DNA of 64,000 bases. Source: Koleobacter methoxysyntrophicus. GTDB taxonomy: Bacteria; Bacillota; Thermosediminibacteria; Koleobacterales; Koleobacteraceae. Within the stretch, counting starts at the first letter, position 1. Every line of letters starts with the position of its first letter. The stretch is from NCBI RefSeq assembly GCF_017301615.1, contig NZ_CP059066.1, forward strand, positions 1,285,001 through 1,349,000, written 5' to 3'. The notes beneath the pieces were generated by a model, which did not search any database, had not been told where the DNA came from, and saw only the letters and a program-made list of their open reading frames with translations. The position numbers and the translations under genes were made by a program. Positions 2,933 to 32,532 of the stretch are shown here, in pieces.

Positions 2933-2960
2933 AGCGGGATTTCCCGCTTATTTTATTTAA
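2933..2960 (+). terminator. Rho-independent terminator of the rRNA-tRNA operon
   Basis: AGCGGGA pairs with TCCCGCT and is followed by TATTTTATTT. It sits 11 nt after the tRNA-Asn CCA end. Confidence 0.8.
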
Positions 2961-2961
2961 T

Positions 2962-3068
2962 GACTATATACTTTACTCAGGATAGGGCAAGTCCAGTTGA
3001 ATAAATGGCAAACACATAAGCGACTGTTAATTTGGCTCGCAAGCCTATAAAGGCGGAGAGCCAAACCT
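2962..3068 (+). repeat. Dispersed ~120-bp repeat, copy 1
   Basis: It begins GACTATATACTTTACTCAGG and ends in an inverted pair TTTGGCTC ... GAGCCAAA. Two further copies share most positions: 18211-18336 on the minus strand and 26762-26882 on the plus strand. It has no open frame of its own. It starts directly after the rRNA-operon terminator. The function is unknown; it could be a MITE-like repeat or a small structured RNA. Confidence 0.75.
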
Positions 3069-18210: not shown

Positions 18211-18336
18211 GCTCCGCTCACTTCACTCTGGAATTTGGCTCTCCGCCATCACAGGCTAGCAGCCAAATTAACAGTCGCTTATGTGTTTGCTATTTATTCA
18301 ACTGGACTTGTCGTATCCTGAGTGAAGTATATAGTC
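18211..18336 (-). repeat. Dispersed ~120-bp repeat, copy 2
   Basis: Reverse-strand copy of the repeat at 2962-3068 and 26762-26882. It retains the GACTATATACTT start, CAGGATACG..CAAGTCC, GCGACTGTTAATTTGGCT and GAGCCAAATTCCAGAGTGA segments. With copy 3 it forms an inverted pair flanking 18.4-26.7 kb. Confidence 0.75.
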
Positions 18337-26736: not shown

Positions 26737-26761
26737 TTTTCCCTAATTGAAAATAGAAAAA

Positions 26762-26882
26762 GACTATATACTTTGCTCAGGATACGGCAAGTCCGGTTGA
26801 AGAAATGGCAAATCCCGGAGCGACTGTTAATTTGGCTCGAAGCCATGGATGGCGAAGAGCCAAATTCCAGAGTGAGCGGAGC
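26762..26882 (+). repeat. Dispersed ~120-bp repeat, copy 3
   Basis: Plus-strand copy of the repeat at 2962-3068. It shares GACTATATACTTTGCTCAGG, CGGCAAGTCC, GCGACTGTTAATTTGGCTCG and GAGCCAAATTCCAGAGTGAG. It is inverted relative to copy 2. G-rich low-complexity sequence with GGCGGAGCG-like units follows to about 26930. Confidence 0.75.
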
Positions 26883-26959
26883 ATGGAGGCGGAGCGAACG
26901 GCAAGCGGAGGGATGCCATTTATAATTCTCTCTGAGCTAAGGGGATAGCCATAAAATAG

Positions 26960-27238
26960 AATATTCAGGTGCGGGACATCAGTCCTTCCTCTCTAAGGAG
27001 AAATTTCCAGAGCCTTGAACCGGGATAATCCATAAGCCGGGGAGCCGAGGGAAGGAGCGATGAGTTAGAGAGGTACTGCGGCACGACAGTTGCAAAACTG
27101 TTATCGGCAGGGAAGGAGATTGGGCGACCAATAATTTTATTTACCTTGTATTTAGGTTTATTAGGGGTGTACTTTTTTAGAACACCTTTCTGTAAATTTT
27201 TTACTCCTTCCCTGTTAATTCGGGAAGGGGTATTTTTT
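26960..27238 (+). promoter_or_regulatory. Structured leader RNA with alternative antiterminator/terminator pairing; candidate riboswitch
   Basis: CCTCTCTAA at 26988-26996 pairs perfectly with TTAGAGAGG at 27065-27073, closing a multi-hairpin region. ACAGTT-GCAA-AACTGT forms a further hairpin. CAGGGAAGGAG at 27108-27118 is exactly complementary to CTCCTTCCCTG at 27204-27214. The same CCTTCCC (27206-27212) is also the left arm of a terminator with GGGAAGG at 27222-27228 and a TATTTTTTAT tail. The two pairings exclude each other. The terminator arm GGGAAGGGG also contains the Shine-Dalgarno of the THEP1 gene, so translation could be controlled too. I do not match it to a known class by eye. A Moco/Tuco-type or other metal-cofactor switch is suggested only by context. 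Confidence 0.65.
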
Positions 27239-27778
27239 ATGATCAATATTTTTTTAACAGGTCCGGTTAATATAGGGAAAAGCACTATTGTAAATACGGT
27301 GCTAGACGATCTGCAAGCAGCCGGGGTGCATACTGCAGGATTTTACACCCTGCCCTATGTGATAAATGAAGAACTGAGAGGGTTTTATATTGAACCGCTT
27401 AATTACCCTTATTTTGTCCCTGAAAAGAGGGAAAGATTGATAGCGTACGGCATCGGTGATAAGTGGTATGCCGTTAAAGAAACCTTTGATAAGTTCGGGG
27501 CGGATATTTTAGATTACTGCTTAAACAGCACTGCAGATTTAATAATAATGGACGAGCTCGGTTTTTTCGAATCAGAGGCTTTTAGATTTCAGGAGATGGT
27601 TTTTACCCTGCTTTCAAGCCCAAAGCTGGTTTTCGGTGTAATAAAGCCTATTATTATACCGTTTATGGATAAGATAAGGGGGCATAAAGACGTAATCCTC
27701 TTTGAAATAACGGATACAAACAGGGATAGGCTCCCGAATAAAATACTTAAAATCATAAAAAAGGAGATGGGGATATGA
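27239..27778 (+). CDS. THEP1-family nucleoside-triphosphatase
   Basis: The 179-residue protein matches the THEP1/NTPase_1 family. The P-loop GPVNIGKST lies at residues 8-16, followed by the family's GFYTLPYVINEELRGF segment, and Walker B is DLIIMDELGFFESEAF. The physiological role of the family is not established. The ATG at 27239 is preceded by GGGAAGGGG, which is also the right arm of the leader terminator, so expression depends on that hairpin. The longer ORF from 27146 would start inside the leader and is rejected. It is the first gene of the transporter operon. Confidence 0.85.
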   Translation: MINIFLTGPVNIGKSTIVNTVLDDLQAAGVHTAGFYTLPYVINEELRGFYIEPLNYPYFVPEKRERLIAYGIGDKWYAVKETFDKFGADILDYCLNSTADLIIMDELGFFESEAFRFQEMVFTLLSSPKLVFGVIKPIIIPFMDKIRGHKDVILFEITDTNRDRLPNKILKIIKKEMGI

Positions 27779-27866: not shown

Positions 27867-28604
27867 ATGGAACAATCTGCGGTTTACCGGAGACTAAAAA
27901 CCTTTTTAGATAGACAGGCACACTCTTATAATCTCCTGGGAGAAAGGGTTTCGATCCAGGGGAAAGTCCTTTCGACAGAGGAAGCTATTGGGAAACCGCA
28001 GCGACAGGACTTTCCTTTAATAAAAGGAAAGGAAAAGCTGCTTCAAGCCGAATTTAAAGGGGCTTTGGGCCAGGCATTTACAGACAGCCCTGATTCCTTT
28101 GAAGGGACATTGAATGGGTTTTTAAAAATGCCTCTAGAAACGAATTTTCAGAGGGCTGCTTTTACAGCCGTATTAAACGCAGTAATGCGTCATCTGGGTA
28201 TGGTTGAGGGAACGATCCATTGTAAGGGTGATGAACCCAATAAATGTGCTCAAAAATTAGTTGATTATATTCGAAAAAATTTCAATAAACCCAAAATAGC
28301 GTTAATCGGTTTTCAACCGGCCCTACTAGATTTTTGCAGTAGAGAGTTTCCCGTCCGTGTAGTTGATCTGAATCCTGAAAATATCGGCAGGGAGAAATAT
28401 GGTGTATTGGTAGAAGATGCTGAGTTTAAAACACGGGAATTGTTAGGGTGGTGTGACCTTCTTCTTGTTACTGGAAGCACCCTGACTAATGGAACAATCG
28501 TTAATTTTCTGGAATTGGATAAACAGGTTATATTTTATGGGACAACAATTGCAGGAGCCGCAAAGATTTTAGGGCTGAAGCGCTTCTGTGAATGTGCAAA
28601 ATGA
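27867..28604 (+). CDS. DUF364 protein (putative heavy-metal chelation domain)
   Basis: The 245-residue protein resembles the DUF364 / putative heavy-metal-chelation family. It has an N-terminal region with GLGQAFTDSP-like sequence and FQRAAFTAVLNAVMRHLGM. A Rossmann-like C-terminal half carries KIALIGFQPALLDF, RVVDLNPENIG, CDLLLVTGSTLTNGTIVNFLEL and the family ending IFYGTTIAGAAKILGL. Structures of relatives show a site able to hold a metal or small ligand, but the function is unproven. It lies between the THEP1 gene and an ABC transporter, suggesting a role linked to the imported substrate. ATG 27867 follows GGGGAGG. Confidence 0.8.
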   Translation: MEQSAVYRRLKTFLDRQAHSYNLLGERVSIQGKVLSTEEAIGKPQRQDFPLIKGKEKLLQAEFKGALGQAFTDSPDSFEGTLNGFLKMPLETNFQRAAFTAVLNAVMRHLGMVEGTIHCKGDEPNKCAQKLVDYIRKNFNKPKIALIGFQPALLDFCSREFPVRVVDLNPENIGREKYGVLVEDAEFKTRELLGWCDLLLVTGSTLTNGTIVNFLELDKQVIFYGTTIAGAAKILGLKRFCECAK

Positions 28605-28652
28605 AAAGTAAAGTGAAATATAACGTTGCAGTGTAAAAGGGGGAGATTAAAG

Positions 28653-29681
28653 TTGATTAAAAGGATAATCACGATTCTGCTTTTGATGGTGATGATAATT
28701 TCAGCATGTTTTGCAATTGCTGGATGCAGCAGGCCAAAAAAAAATCCCGGATTTGCATTAGCAGTAGAATACAACACCCATGCAGCTTGTGCTTATGTGG
28801 CGCAGAGCAAAGGTTGGCTGAGTGAAAAAGGCTATGATCAAGGGGCATTTGATGTTTATGCTACTGGAGTAGCCCTTGCCGGGGCTCTGACCAAGGGCGG
28901 TGTAGATGCAGCTTATATTTGTTTGATTCCAGCTATAGCAGCTTATGCAAATGCAGATGTTCCAATAAAGATTGTCTGCGGCACCCATAAATACGGTTAT
29001 GCATTGGTGGTTGATCCATCTAAAGTTAGCACAATTAAAGATTTAGAAAAAGGGAGTGTTAAGATAGGTTGTGTGAGAGAGGGGGGGACTACAGACATCC
29101 TCCTGCATAAAATTATCGAACGCTACGGATTAGACAAAAAAAAGGTATTGGGTAATGTTTTGCGAATGAACCCGGCGAAGCAAATTATGGCTATTAAGGC
29201 AAAAAAATTAGATGCAGTCGTAGTTCCAGAACATTTCGCTACCATAGCTGAACAAAAGCTGGGGCTTAAAATGCTGGTAAAGAGCCAGGATGTCTGGCCG
29301 CAAATGCAGGGGAGCGTTTTGATAGTAACGGATAGACTGCTTAGAGAAAATCCCACGGCTGTAAGAGACCTTTTTAAAATAACTTCTATGGCAACAGATT
29401 ATATAAACGAACACCCTTCTGAAGCGGCAGAAATCGTGGCCAACAAACTTAATGCCTTTCAGGAAGCGGTTAATTTAAAAGAAATGGCCGATGGCAACAG
29501 CGATTTCGATGTTACTTTAGACCTTCTTTCTTGTTCTATGGCTAATTTGGAGTATACTACTCAGATAGATCAGGCGGAAGTGCAGGAAGTTATTGATTTT
29601 ATGCTGCAGCTTGGTTATATAAAAGAAAGATTTTCAGCATCAGACATTTTATTAGAGCAAAGTCATTTTACGGGGGAATAA
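28653..29681 (+). CDS. ABC transporter substrate-binding lipoprotein, NitT/TauT (NMT1-like) family
   Basis: The 342-residue lipoprotein has a signal sequence ending in a lipobox IAGC (Cys about residue 20). The mature part has the NMT1/SsuA two-lobe fold: ALAVEYNTHAACAYVAQSKGWL, GGVDAAYICLIPAIAAYANAD, and SVKIGCVREGGTTDILLHKII. Ligand-contacting residues cannot be read. The TTG start at 28653 follows GGGGGAG; the ORF extends upstream without a signal. With the permease and ATPase it forms a complete importer. Context (Mo enzymes, DUF364, MoeA-like protein) suggests a metal- or cofactor-related substrate rather than taurine or nitrate, but this is inference. Confidence 0.87.
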   Translation: MIKRIITILLLMVMIISACFAIAGCSRPKKNPGFALAVEYNTHAACAYVAQSKGWLSEKGYDQGAFDVYATGVALAGALTKGGVDAAYICLIPAIAAYANADVPIKIVCGTHKYGYALVVDPSKVSTIKDLEKGSVKIGCVREGGTTDILLHKIIERYGLDKKKVLGNVLRMNPAKQIMAIKAKKLDAVVVPEHFATIAEQKLGLKMLVKSQDVWPQMQGSVLIVTDRLLRENPTAVRDLFKITSMATDYINEHPSEAAEIVANKLNAFQEAVNLKEMADGNSDFDVTLDLLSCSMANLEYTTQIDQAEVQEVIDFMLQLGYIKERFSASDILLEQSHFTGE

Positions 29682-29684
29682 AAA

Positions 29685-30443
29685 ATGAATAAGGAGAATC
29701 TGCTTTTGGGCAAAACGATGCATTTCATACCCATATTTATTTTCGCAGCAGGTTGGGAAATTTTAGCGCGTCTTGCAGGCAGCCCCCTTTTTCCGCCCAT
29801 TTCTGCAGTAATACAGGAATTTTACTCGCTGCTTGTGCCTAATGGCTTGTTAGTGCACCATTTTACTGCAAGTTTGATTAGGGTCATAACCGGCTTTGCT
29901 ATGGGAAGTATTGCAGGCTTACTGGTAGGGATTCTTATAGGATGGAACCAGATTGCCGAAAGGGCACTTAGTCCGCTAATCAGCATTTTATATCCCATCC
30001 CAGCTCTTGGTTGGCTACCATTACTGATGCTGTGGGTAGGTATTAACGAAATTTTACCAATCTTGATCATTTTTATATGTTCCTTTTTCCCTATTCTATA
30101 TAACACAGTAACAGGTGTAAAAAGCGTAGATGTTAGGTTTATCAAAGCAGCCAGGGTGCTTGGCGCATCGGACAGTCAGATACTATGGAGGGTTATTTTG
30201 CCTTTGGCGCTTCCTAACATATTTACCGGTCTTAAGTTGGAAGCTGGTATGGCATGGCGCGTTATCGTTGCAGCCGAGATGGTTGCTATACCTACAGGAA
30301 TCGGTGTTCTGTTGATGAAAGCAGAGAGCATAATTCGGGTAGATATTATTATGGTTTGCCTGCTTATTCTATCACTGATGTGTCTTTCTTTCGAAAAATT
30401 CTTCCATTACCTTGAAGCTAAATTTACCCATCATTGGAGGTAA
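29685..30443 (+). CDS. ABC transporter permease, NitT/TauT family
   Basis: The 252-residue permease has about six membrane segments. The conserved cytoplasmic loop FIKAARVLGASDSQILWRVILPLALPNIFTGL (about 150-182) contains the EAA-type motif that docks the ATPase. SsuC/TauC-type sequences such as YPIPALGWLPLLMLWVG and GMAWRVIVAAEMVA are present. It starts 3 bp after the binding-protein gene and overlaps the ribosome binding region of the ATPase gene. Confidence 0.93.
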   Translation: MNKENLLLGKTMHFIPIFIFAAGWEILARLAGSPLFPPISAVIQEFYSLLVPNGLLVHHFTASLIRVITGFAMGSIAGLLVGILIGWNQIAERALSPLISILYPIPALGWLPLLMLWVGINEILPILIIFICSFFPILYNTVTGVKSVDVRFIKAARVLGASDSQILWRVILPLALPNIFTGLKLEAGMAWRVIVAAEMVAIPTGIGVLLMKAESIIRVDIIMVCLLILSLMCLSFEKFFHYLEAKFTHHWR

Positions 30444-30447
30444 ACAT

Positions 30448-31497
30448 ATGTCTTCGGTTGAGCTTATGAATATATCTACTCCTTACAGCCTTAAAAATAT
30501 AAATCTAAAGGTTAGAGATGGAGAACTGCTGGTGCTGCTGGGTCCTACAGGTGCCGGCAAAACCACTATGCTGAATGTTATTGCCGGTCTGGAGAATTAC
30601 AGCGGTTCGGTTTTGTTTGATGGTGTACCGATAGATGGAATTCCGACGGGCAGGAGGAATGTAGGATATCTGTTTCAGGACCTCAACCTGTTTCCCCATT
30701 TAAACGTTTTTTGGAATATTGCCTTTGGACTAAAAATGCAAGGGCTGAACAAAACTGAAATCCAGGATAAAGTTGATAAAATGCTGCATCTATTGAAAAT
30801 TGAACCACTTAGGGACCGTTTCCCTAAAAACTTAAGCGGAGGAGAGAAACAGCGGGTGGCTTTGGCAAGGGCCTTGATCAATTTGCCCTGCATTTTGCTG
30901 CTTGATGAACCGATGAGCAGTTTGGATTACCGCACTTCTAAATACCTGAGGACCGAACTGAGGATGCTGCAGAAAAAGCTCGGCATTACTACGGTGTATG
31001 TCACCCACAACTTGTACGAGGCTGAAGAAATGGCGGATAGAATTGCTGTAATTGATAAAGGTAGATTGGAGCAAATAGGCTCCCCGGAGGATGTATTTTT
31101 TCATCCCCAAGAAACAGTCAGCAGCTTCATCGGAGCGCCAAATATTTTGAACTGCGAATACTGCCGTCTATTGAACCCAAGTTTAATGGAAGTCGAATGT
31201 GGCGGCATTTCTCTGATAATACCAAATGAAGGCAAACAGGTCAGGAAACTTGCCATTTTACCGGAAGATATTTATATCTCTGCTGCTAAACCGCCCGGAC
31301 CCAATATAAACAGAGTTAAAGGCATCTTAATGAAGGTCGATGAATCTACCCATACTGTCTGCTGCACTGTCCTCGCAGGTGAAAATTATTTAAGGGCGGA
31401 GCTACCTAAGGAGATATTTAAAACCATGGGTTTGGATATTGGTGGTGAAGTATGGCTGATCCTTAATCTGCGAAAGTTAAAAGTTGCAAATAAATAA
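30448..31497 (+). CDS. ABC transporter ATP-binding protein with C-terminal TOBE-like domain (ModC/WtpC-like)
   Basis: The 349-residue ATPase has Walker A GPTGAGKTT, Q-loop LFQDLNLFPHLNVFWNIAFGL, signature LSGGEKQRVALARALI and Walker B ILLLDEPMSSLD. A long C-terminal extension (about 235-349) includes LAILPEDIYISAAKP, the kind of oligosaccharide/anion-binding TOBE domain found in ModC, WtpC and PotA-type ATPases but usually missing from SsuB/TauB. This hybrid character (TauT-like permease, ModC-like ATPase) supports an oxyanion or metal-related substrate. Start ATG 30448 follows GGAGG. Confidence 0.88.
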   Translation: MSSVELMNISTPYSLKNINLKVRDGELLVLLGPTGAGKTTMLNVIAGLENYSGSVLFDGVPIDGIPTGRRNVGYLFQDLNLFPHLNVFWNIAFGLKMQGLNKTEIQDKVDKMLHLLKIEPLRDRFPKNLSGGEKQRVALARALINLPCILLLDEPMSSLDYRTSKYLRTELRMLQKKLGITTVYVTHNLYEAEEMADRIAVIDKGRLEQIGSPEDVFFHPQETVSSFIGAPNILNCEYCRLLNPSLMEVECGGISLIIPNEGKQVRKLAILPEDIYISAAKPPGPNINRVKGILMKVDESTHTVCCTVLAGENYLRAELPKEIFKTMGLDIGGEVWLILNLRKLKVANK

Positions 31498-31512: not shown

Positions 31513-32532
31513 GTGAAAAAAGTACCGGTCGAAAAAGCAATAGGAATGGTTTTGTGCCATGATATAACGAAAATCATACCTGGCCAGTTTAAAGGCAGGG
31601 CTTTTAAAAAGGGTCATATTATTCAAAAGGAAGATATAGATGAACTCCTAAGACTCGGGAAGGAACATGTTTATGTTTGGGAACAAAATTCTGGTGAAAT
31701 ACATGAGGACGAAGCAGCCCTTAGAATTGCCAGAGCGGTAGCAGGGGAAAATATAGAATACTGCGAACCTAAGGAGGGGAAGGTTACTCTTAAGGCCGCG
31801 GTAAAGGGCTTATTTAAGGTTGATAGCAAGCTTCTGCAGGAGATAAATTCTATTGAATATATTTCAATCGCATCCCTTCCTGGGGATTTTGCGGTGGAAG
31901 AAGGCCAAAAAGTGGCCGGAGCCCGCATTATACCCCTTATGATTGAAGAAAAAAGGGTAAAAGAGGTTGAGAATCTGTGCGGGGAGAAAGGCTCTGTTTT
32001 TCAAGTGTTCCAGTACAAAAAGCTGAAAGTTTCGGTCATAACAACGGGAAATGAGGTTTACAAGGGGAGGATTCAGGATAAATTCGGCCCTGTTATTTTA
32101 AAAAAGTTAGATTACTTTAATGCCGATTATTTAGGCCAAACCTTTTGCCCTGACAGCATCGAAGAGATTAAGAAGGCAATTCTGGGCTGCAGGGAGCGGG
32201 GAGCCGATTTGATAATTCTAACGGGGGGCATGTCAGTAGATCCGGATGATGTGACACCGAGTGCCATACGAAACACCGGGGCCCGGGTGGTGACTTATGG
32301 AGCTCCTGTTCAGCCCGGCAATATGTTTATGATGGCTTACCTCGACACGACGGCTATCTTAGGTGTGCCTGGATGTGCTATGTATTACAAAACTACTATT
32401 TTAGATTCGGTCCTGCCGAAAATATTTGCCGGCCAAATCTTAACAAGAGACGATTTCGTGAGGATGGGTGAAGGTGGATTTTGCCTTAACTGTGAAGTAT
32501 GTCGTTACCCTAATTGCTATTTCTGCAGATGA
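31513..32532 (+). CDS. MoeA/MogA-like molybdopterin-binding protein with Cys-rich C-terminus
   Basis: The 339-residue protein begins KVPVEKAIGMVLCHDITKIIPGQFKGRAFKKGHII, as in clostridial molybdopterin-binding (MoeA-like) proteins. It contains the MPT-binding fold motif LTGGMSVDPDDVTPSAIRNTG and the partner motif GVPGCAMYYKTTILDSVLP. MoeA inserts molybdate or tungstate into adenylylated molybdopterin; this variant lacks the full MoeA domain set. The C-terminus ends in GFCLNCEVCRYPNCYFCR, five closely spaced Cys that could bind a metal. It is the last gene of the ABC operon, 16 bp after the ATPase, which ties that transporter to Mo/W metabolism. Confidence 0.85.
   Translation: MKKVPVEKAIGMVLCHDITKIIPGQFKGRAFKKGHIIQKEDIDELLRLGKEHVYVWEQNSGEIHEDEAALRIARAVAGENIEYCEPKEGKVTLKAAVKGLFKVDSKLLQEINSIEYISIASLPGDFAVEEGQKVAGARIIPLMIEEKRVKEVENLCGEKGSVFQVFQYKKLKVSVITTGNEVYKGRIQDKFGPVILKKLDYFNADYLGQTFCPDSIEEIKKAILGCRERGADLIILTGGMSVDPDDVTPSAIRNTGARVVTYGAPVQPGNMFMMAYLDTTAILGVPGCAMYYKTTILDSVLPKIFAGQILTRDDFVRMGEGGFCLNCEVCRYPNCYFCR

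Follow-up and report, generated by a model that had tools for sequence, protein, structure and literature searches.

A conserved structured leader, probably a riboswitch-type attenuator, upstream of a THEP1-DUF364-transporter operon in Koleobacter methoxysyntrophicus

The operon and its leader

The stretch of Koleobacter methoxysyntrophicus DNA analysed here (64,000 nucleotides of contig NZ_CP059066.1; below, the window) harbors an operon that starts with the gene for a THEP1-type nucleoside triphosphatase (NTPase), whose ATG lies at 27239, and is preceded by a 5′ leader at 26966-27238. This leader is an attenuator-type RNA of no known family and probably a riboswitch, which would then represent a new class. 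One clear homologue was found in genome G253, which belongs to another class of the same phylum (locus L047, 1156-1316, 5′ of a THEP1 gene with start codon at 1495). The features of the window leader and operon, all on the forward (+) strand, are the following.

26973-26986 (+): hairpin P1 (26973-26977 with 26982-26986), kept in G253 with an A-U to G-C change
26988-27073 (+): aptamer-like domain closed by P2 (CCTCTCTAA, 26988-26996, with TTAGAGAGG, 27065-27073; 9 bp)
27004-27053 (+): P3 (27004-27008 with 27049-27053), with P3a inside it (27012-27013 with 27044-27045)
27020-27040 (+): P4 (27020-27023 with 27037-27040), with the 13-nt loop GATAATCCATAAG and a C-G to U-A double change in the stem
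27048-27057 (+): second purine-rich segment, rival partner of the terminator 5′ arm (10 of 10 bases with 27204-27213)
27076-27110 (+): P5 (27076-27079 with 27107-27110) around a variable hairpin; CUGC/GCAG invariant
27108-27118 (+): antiterminator 5′ strand CAGGGAAGGAG, perfect 11-bp complement of the 3′ strand; its GGRAGGA segment is conserved in G253
27119-27132 (+): hairpin P6 (27119-27123 with 27128-27132), with a G-C to A-U double change
27154-27199 (+): long spacer hairpin within the antiterminator, predicted in prefix folds; a different hairpin takes the same place in G253
27204-27214 (+): antiterminator 3′ strand CTCCTTCCCTG, doubling as the 5′ arm of the terminator; the two helices alternate in prefix folds
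27203-27238 (+): intrinsic terminator with U-run (read directly and in folds), its 3′ arm carrying the Shine-Dalgarno sequence of THEP1
27239-27778 (+): THEP1-type NTPase, first gene of the operon (PF03266, E 3.8e-28)
27867-28604 (+): DUF364 protein (PF04016, E 1.1e-10), whose relatives lie behind Moco (molybdenum cofactor) RNAs
28626-31497 (+): ATP-binding cassette (ABC) importer, comprising an NMT1-type substrate-binding protein, a permease and an ATPase (PF13379/PF09084, PF00528, PF00005)
31513-32532 (+): MoeA-like molybdopterin-binding protein, end of the operon (PF00994, E 5.6e-24)

Directly 5′ of the operon lie the genes for YqeC, a MocA-like protein, XdhC and YqeB, which are maturation proteins of selenium-dependent molybdenum hydroxylases, and the same cluster holds a nucleobase permease and a xanthine-dehydrogenase-type protein. 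The operon of G253 encodes THEP1, a BtuF-like protein, FecCD, an ATPase and, as the last gene, MocA; MoCoBD_1/2 proteins (molybdopterin-binding hydroxylase subunits) are encoded shortly upstream of it. A MoeA-like gene adjoins THEP1 in genome G005 too. The substrate-binding protein of the window (28626-29681) shows distant, sub-threshold matches to the NCBIfam SsuA and SaoX families. In G253 (L111, 22-13278), the homologous leader and operon are situated inside what by gene order appears to be a nicotinate fermentation cluster: molybdenum hydroxylase subunits are encoded upstream, and downstream there are genes for dehydrogenase and B12-dependent mutase.

The leader is single-copy in the source genome. 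A dispersed repeat of about 200 bp (26750-26960) ends just 5′ of it, with further copies at 18223-18336 (minus strand) and 2959-3065 of the window; among the matches listed the repeat is present at 40 sites of the genome, with identities of 92-100% at several of them. A TATAAT at 26921-26926 within the repeat might be the promoter of the leader.

Conservation and switching of the leader

The G253 homologue was detected by inspecting the region upstream of THEP1 relatives obtained in a protein search. The leaders of the window and G253 share 79% identity across 102 nt, against only about 40% between the THEP1 proteins. In the alignment of the two sequences (A1), all 34 pairs of a seven-helix consensus are kept, seven of them by double changes; when the partners are shifted by one to three alignment columns, pairing falls to 32-59%. 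The consensus energy computed with RNAalifold has a z-score of -3.9, with none of 500 column shuffles as good; the whole window leader likewise folds better than its own shuffles (z -2.9). Between the window and G253, P2 differs by two double changes (U-A to A-U and C-G to U-A) and one A-U to G-U change, and P3/P3a by two double changes and one single-side change with every pair kept. The 13-nt loop of P4 differs by one base, and the P6 loop is of the GNRA type in both (GCGA in the window, GTGA in G253). Among the constant parts are the loop G(A/G)TAATCCATAAG and the segments GGAGCCGAG, ATGAGTTA and GGTACTGC. Because of the 79% identity, the 34 kept pairs with seven double changes and the presence in G253 of its own terminator and antiterminator, the leader is a conserved cis-regulatory RNA. 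It is thus a structured 5′ leader of a related gene found in two different lineages, with two members only, and most likely a transcription-attenuating riboswitch. The original prediction had proposed covariation in homologous leaders as a check, and conservation confined to the terminator as grounds for giving the idea up. The closing stem and inner helices are indeed kept with compensatory changes in G253, and it is the upstream domain, rather than the terminator, that is best conserved across the classes.

The elements of the switch were read directly from the sequence and lie where the original prediction had placed them: the closing stem, the exact reverse complementarity of 27108-27118 and 27204-27214 (11 perfect pairs), and the terminator. 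The terminator core is formed by CCTTCCC (27206-27212) with GGGAAGG (27222-27228); the full stem comprises 10 bp (27203-27212 with 27222-27231, one of them G-U) and is followed by six U (27233-27238). A terminator-scanning tool missed it, since the tool permits a loop of 8 nt and the loop here is 9 nt. An 11-bp perfect helix is uncommon, helices of at least 11 bp occurring in 3 of 300 dinucleotide shuffles of the leader.

The two structures had been predicted to be mutually exclusive, which agrees with the computed folds: the terminator and antiterminator end states of the window leader differ by 0.5 kcal/mol (-85.9 and -85.4 kcal/mol). In unconstrained prefix folds of both leaders the antiterminator forms first and the terminator last, while the P1-P4 domain stays throughout. 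The antiterminator in these folds pairs the conserved GGRAGGA segment with the incoming terminator arm and encloses P6 and the tall spacer hairpin. By the A1 columns, all six antiterminator pairs are kept in G253, one A-U of the window being G-C there. The folds therefore contain the mutually exclusive structures of a riboswitch expression platform, with an antiterminator partner that is ambiguous. The claim that the terminator arm carries the Shine-Dalgarno sequence of the first gene holds in the window but not in the homologue. Since the G253 terminator lies about 100 nt 5′ of the start codon, this overlap concerns only the window, and what the two leaders share is termination.

In the mechanism we propose, the leader 26966-27238 would act as a transcription attenuator of the THEP1-DUF364-ABC-MoeA-like operon, in which the conserved aptamer-like domain P1-P6 would decide the fate of the terminator arm. 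Pairing of GGGAAGGAG with CTCCTTCCC would give the antiterminator and keep the operon on, and an arm left free would form the intrinsic terminator and turn it off. The signal would most likely be the molybdenum/tungsten cofactor status, that is Moco, the tungsten cofactor (Tuco), a nucleotide or selenium form of the cofactor, or molybdate/tungstate; with enough cofactor or metal the terminator would be favoured and import shut down. The 3′ strand of P5 overlaps the antiterminator strand at 27108-27110, and in the window folds P5 competes with the antiterminator, which suits a switch turned off by its ligand. If P5 were stabilised, 27108-27110 would no longer be available to the antiterminator; in the window this link is plausible, but it is not clearly seen in G253. 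We infer that the leader RNA binds a small molecule directly, what this ligand is, and that it turns the operon off.

The molybdenum/tungsten signal and other readings

The original prediction connected the leader with molybdenum and selenium through its neighbours, and this connection is strengthened by Moco RNAs (RF01055) that lie 5′ of homologous operons elsewhere. THEP1-BtuF-FecCD-ATPase operons from G182, G094 and G083, with proteins 27-42% identical, follow Moco RNAs at L116 (75.8 bits), L118 (72.1 bits) and L119 (86.8 bits). Of 29 foreign DUF364 genes, 7, which belong to four families of genomes, likewise follow closely on a Moco RNA of the same strand; these are not all independent, as four of the seven belong to a single family. 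Like Moco RNAs, the window leader stands before molybdenum/tungsten transport or cofactor genes, and no Moco RNA was detected in 1.26 Mb of the source genome including the window. Because homologous operons elsewhere follow Moco RNA, the window leader stands in the place of a molybdenum/tungsten cofactor riboswitch, and its signal is probably the status of that cofactor. Control by Moco RNA depends on Moco in vivo, and variants have been proposed to sense the tungsten cofactor (Regulski et al., PMC2408646). At L034 (2363-3462) three Moco RNAs occupy about 1.1 kb 5′ of a DUF364 gene, a threefold set like that described in Syntrophomonas wolfei (PMC2408646).

On balance we favour the reading that the leader is a riboswitch-type attenuator sensing molybdenum/tungsten cofactor status, with supply switching the THEP1-DUF364-ABC-MoeA-like operon off. 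Several observations weigh against it. The covariation counts are small, with two members only, and shuffling the pairs gave a score as high in 7 of 500 cases. The antiterminator partner put forward in the original prediction is a perfect 11-bp match but not a unique one, because AGGGAAGGAG at 27048-27057 is complementary to 27204-27213 in 10 of 10 bases and almost equally good. By duplex energy the strongest partner of the G253 arm is a purine-rich segment at 1180-1197, not the homologous site, and an alternative pairing of CCUUCC (26984-26989) with GGAAGG (27111-27116) could give a switch turned on by its ligand. Genome G002, of the same order, keeps operon remnants without the leader, most DUF364 and THEP1 genes occur with no Moco RNA close by, and the identity of the ligand rests on gene company.

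That gene company would also suit a riboswitch for another linked compound (a purine, nicotinate, a selenium species or another metal), the link to molybdenum then being a coincidence of neighbourhood. The nucleobase permease and xanthine-dehydrogenase-type protein, the selenium-dependent maturation genes YqeB and YqeC just upstream, and the location of the G253 operon in a catabolic cluster beside another molybdenum hydroxylase all point in this direction. However, the two clusters appear to act on different substrates, and what they have in common is molybdenum hydroxylase genes, THEP1 and an ABC importer; with homologous operons under Moco RNA, we consider another ligand unlikely. An attenuator run by an RNA-binding protein or other trans factor that binds to the conserved fold is in our estimate also unlikely. 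The GNRA hairpin and purine-rich junctions of the conserved domain would suit protein binding too, but typical protein-bound attenuators are smaller and less constrained than this domain of about 110 nt, in which the 13-nt loop is nearly invariant and several junctions are invariant, and equivalent operons use a riboswitch candidate, Moco RNA.

A sensorless terminator whose complementarity arose by chance would find some backing in the ease with which purine- and pyrimidine-rich tracts pair (helices of at least 11 bp arise in 1% of shuffles), yet it is very improbable given that the domain upstream of the terminator is what the two classes conserve best. Leader-peptide attenuation could be read into a short GTG frame (26969 in the window, 1160 in L047) that ends in the same conserved TAA in both leaders and yields predicted peptides resembling each other. 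Neither GTG is preceded by a Shine-Dalgarno sequence, though, and conservation runs past the stop and follows base pairs. The leader is non-coding, because no frame is open throughout both sequences and substitutions (6, 2 and 4 on codon positions 1, 2 and 3) are without third-position bias; a leader peptide is hardly credible here.

Distribution and comparison with known RNA families

A covariance model of the leader (R1) was searched against two overlapping draws of 399 genomes from the phylum, the class of G253 and 39 chosen genomes, among which only the window and G253 gave convincing members. Matches at 15-20 bits in L105 and L107 fall by chance inside murG-like and hpf-like coding sequence, and the remaining R1 matches score no better; L007 shares 28 nt with the leader without the rest of the domain. 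No homologue was found in plasmids, phages or viral contigs. In G002 a THEP1-DUF364-ABC operon (L037, 820-3669) has a broken THEP1 frame and no substrate-binding protein, and is either decayed or misassembled. The sequence of G410, a close relative whose DUF364 is 83% identical, stops at DUF364; THEP1 and the leader were not found there.

A search with Rfam models including RF01055 had been proposed with the original prediction, which recognised no known class. At gathering thresholds Rfam 15 gave no match of the leader to any family, the T-box and all other Rfam leaders included, so that the prediction stands. At E<=10 (4227 models, presumably with RF01713 among them) only weak matches appeared, mostly to the terminator region or the opposite strand. 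The covariance-model method works, because controls were easily found: three thiamine pyrophosphate (TPP) riboswitches in the source genome at 67-74 bits and true Moco RNAs at other loci at 61-87 bits. The main text of discovery surveys of bacterial non-coding RNAs does not mention molybdenum, tungsten or NTPase, and none of the papers searched joins THEP1 with a riboswitch.

Similar to the TPP riboswitch (RF00059), the leader contains a stretch resembling UUGAACC..GG.UAAU.CC and is followed by a gene for an NMT1/THI5-like binding protein; this identity was rejected for lack of a match at E<=10, while the three TPP riboswitches were detected in the same genome. The Moco-II motif (RF01713) is a rare candidate RNA proposed for Moco genes. 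Unlike the leader, it is listed for Proteobacteria (PMC2864571), and the Rfam scan gave no match between the two. Terminator/antiterminator riboswitches such as the yxjA purine riboswitch likewise have an aptamer-like domain ahead of an antiterminator and a terminator that exclude each other, whereas the window leader has a long spacer hairpin and a GNRA hairpin inside the antiterminator and a fold of no known family.

To our knowledge, binding of the ligand by Moco RNA in vitro has yet to be demonstrated, because the cofactor is unstable. The window leader shares with Moco RNA (RF01055; PMC2408646) its place in 5′ leaders of molybdenum/tungsten transport and cofactor operons, including homologous THEP1 and DUF364 operons, and the intrinsic terminator present in some Moco RNA members. 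Judged by covariance models, which match in neither direction, it is nevertheless not a Moco RNA, and conserved sequences and helix order differ. RF01055 gave no covariance-model match in the leader at E<=10, the Moco model R2 matched the terminator stem only (12 bits), and R1 finds nothing in loci holding Moco RNAs. We tentatively suggest that the leader could be a second, structurally unrelated class of molybdenum/tungsten-cofactor riboswitch that replaces Moco RNA 5′ of homologous operons in rare anaerobic Bacillota; its ligand may also be a form of that cofactor, such as the selenium-dependent or the cytosine-dinucleotide one. If so, the uncharacterised THEP1 and DUF364 families would be tied to molybdenum/tungsten homeostasis, and a second RNA fold for the same signal would allow the ways in which RNA can read the molybdenum/tungsten cofactor to be compared.
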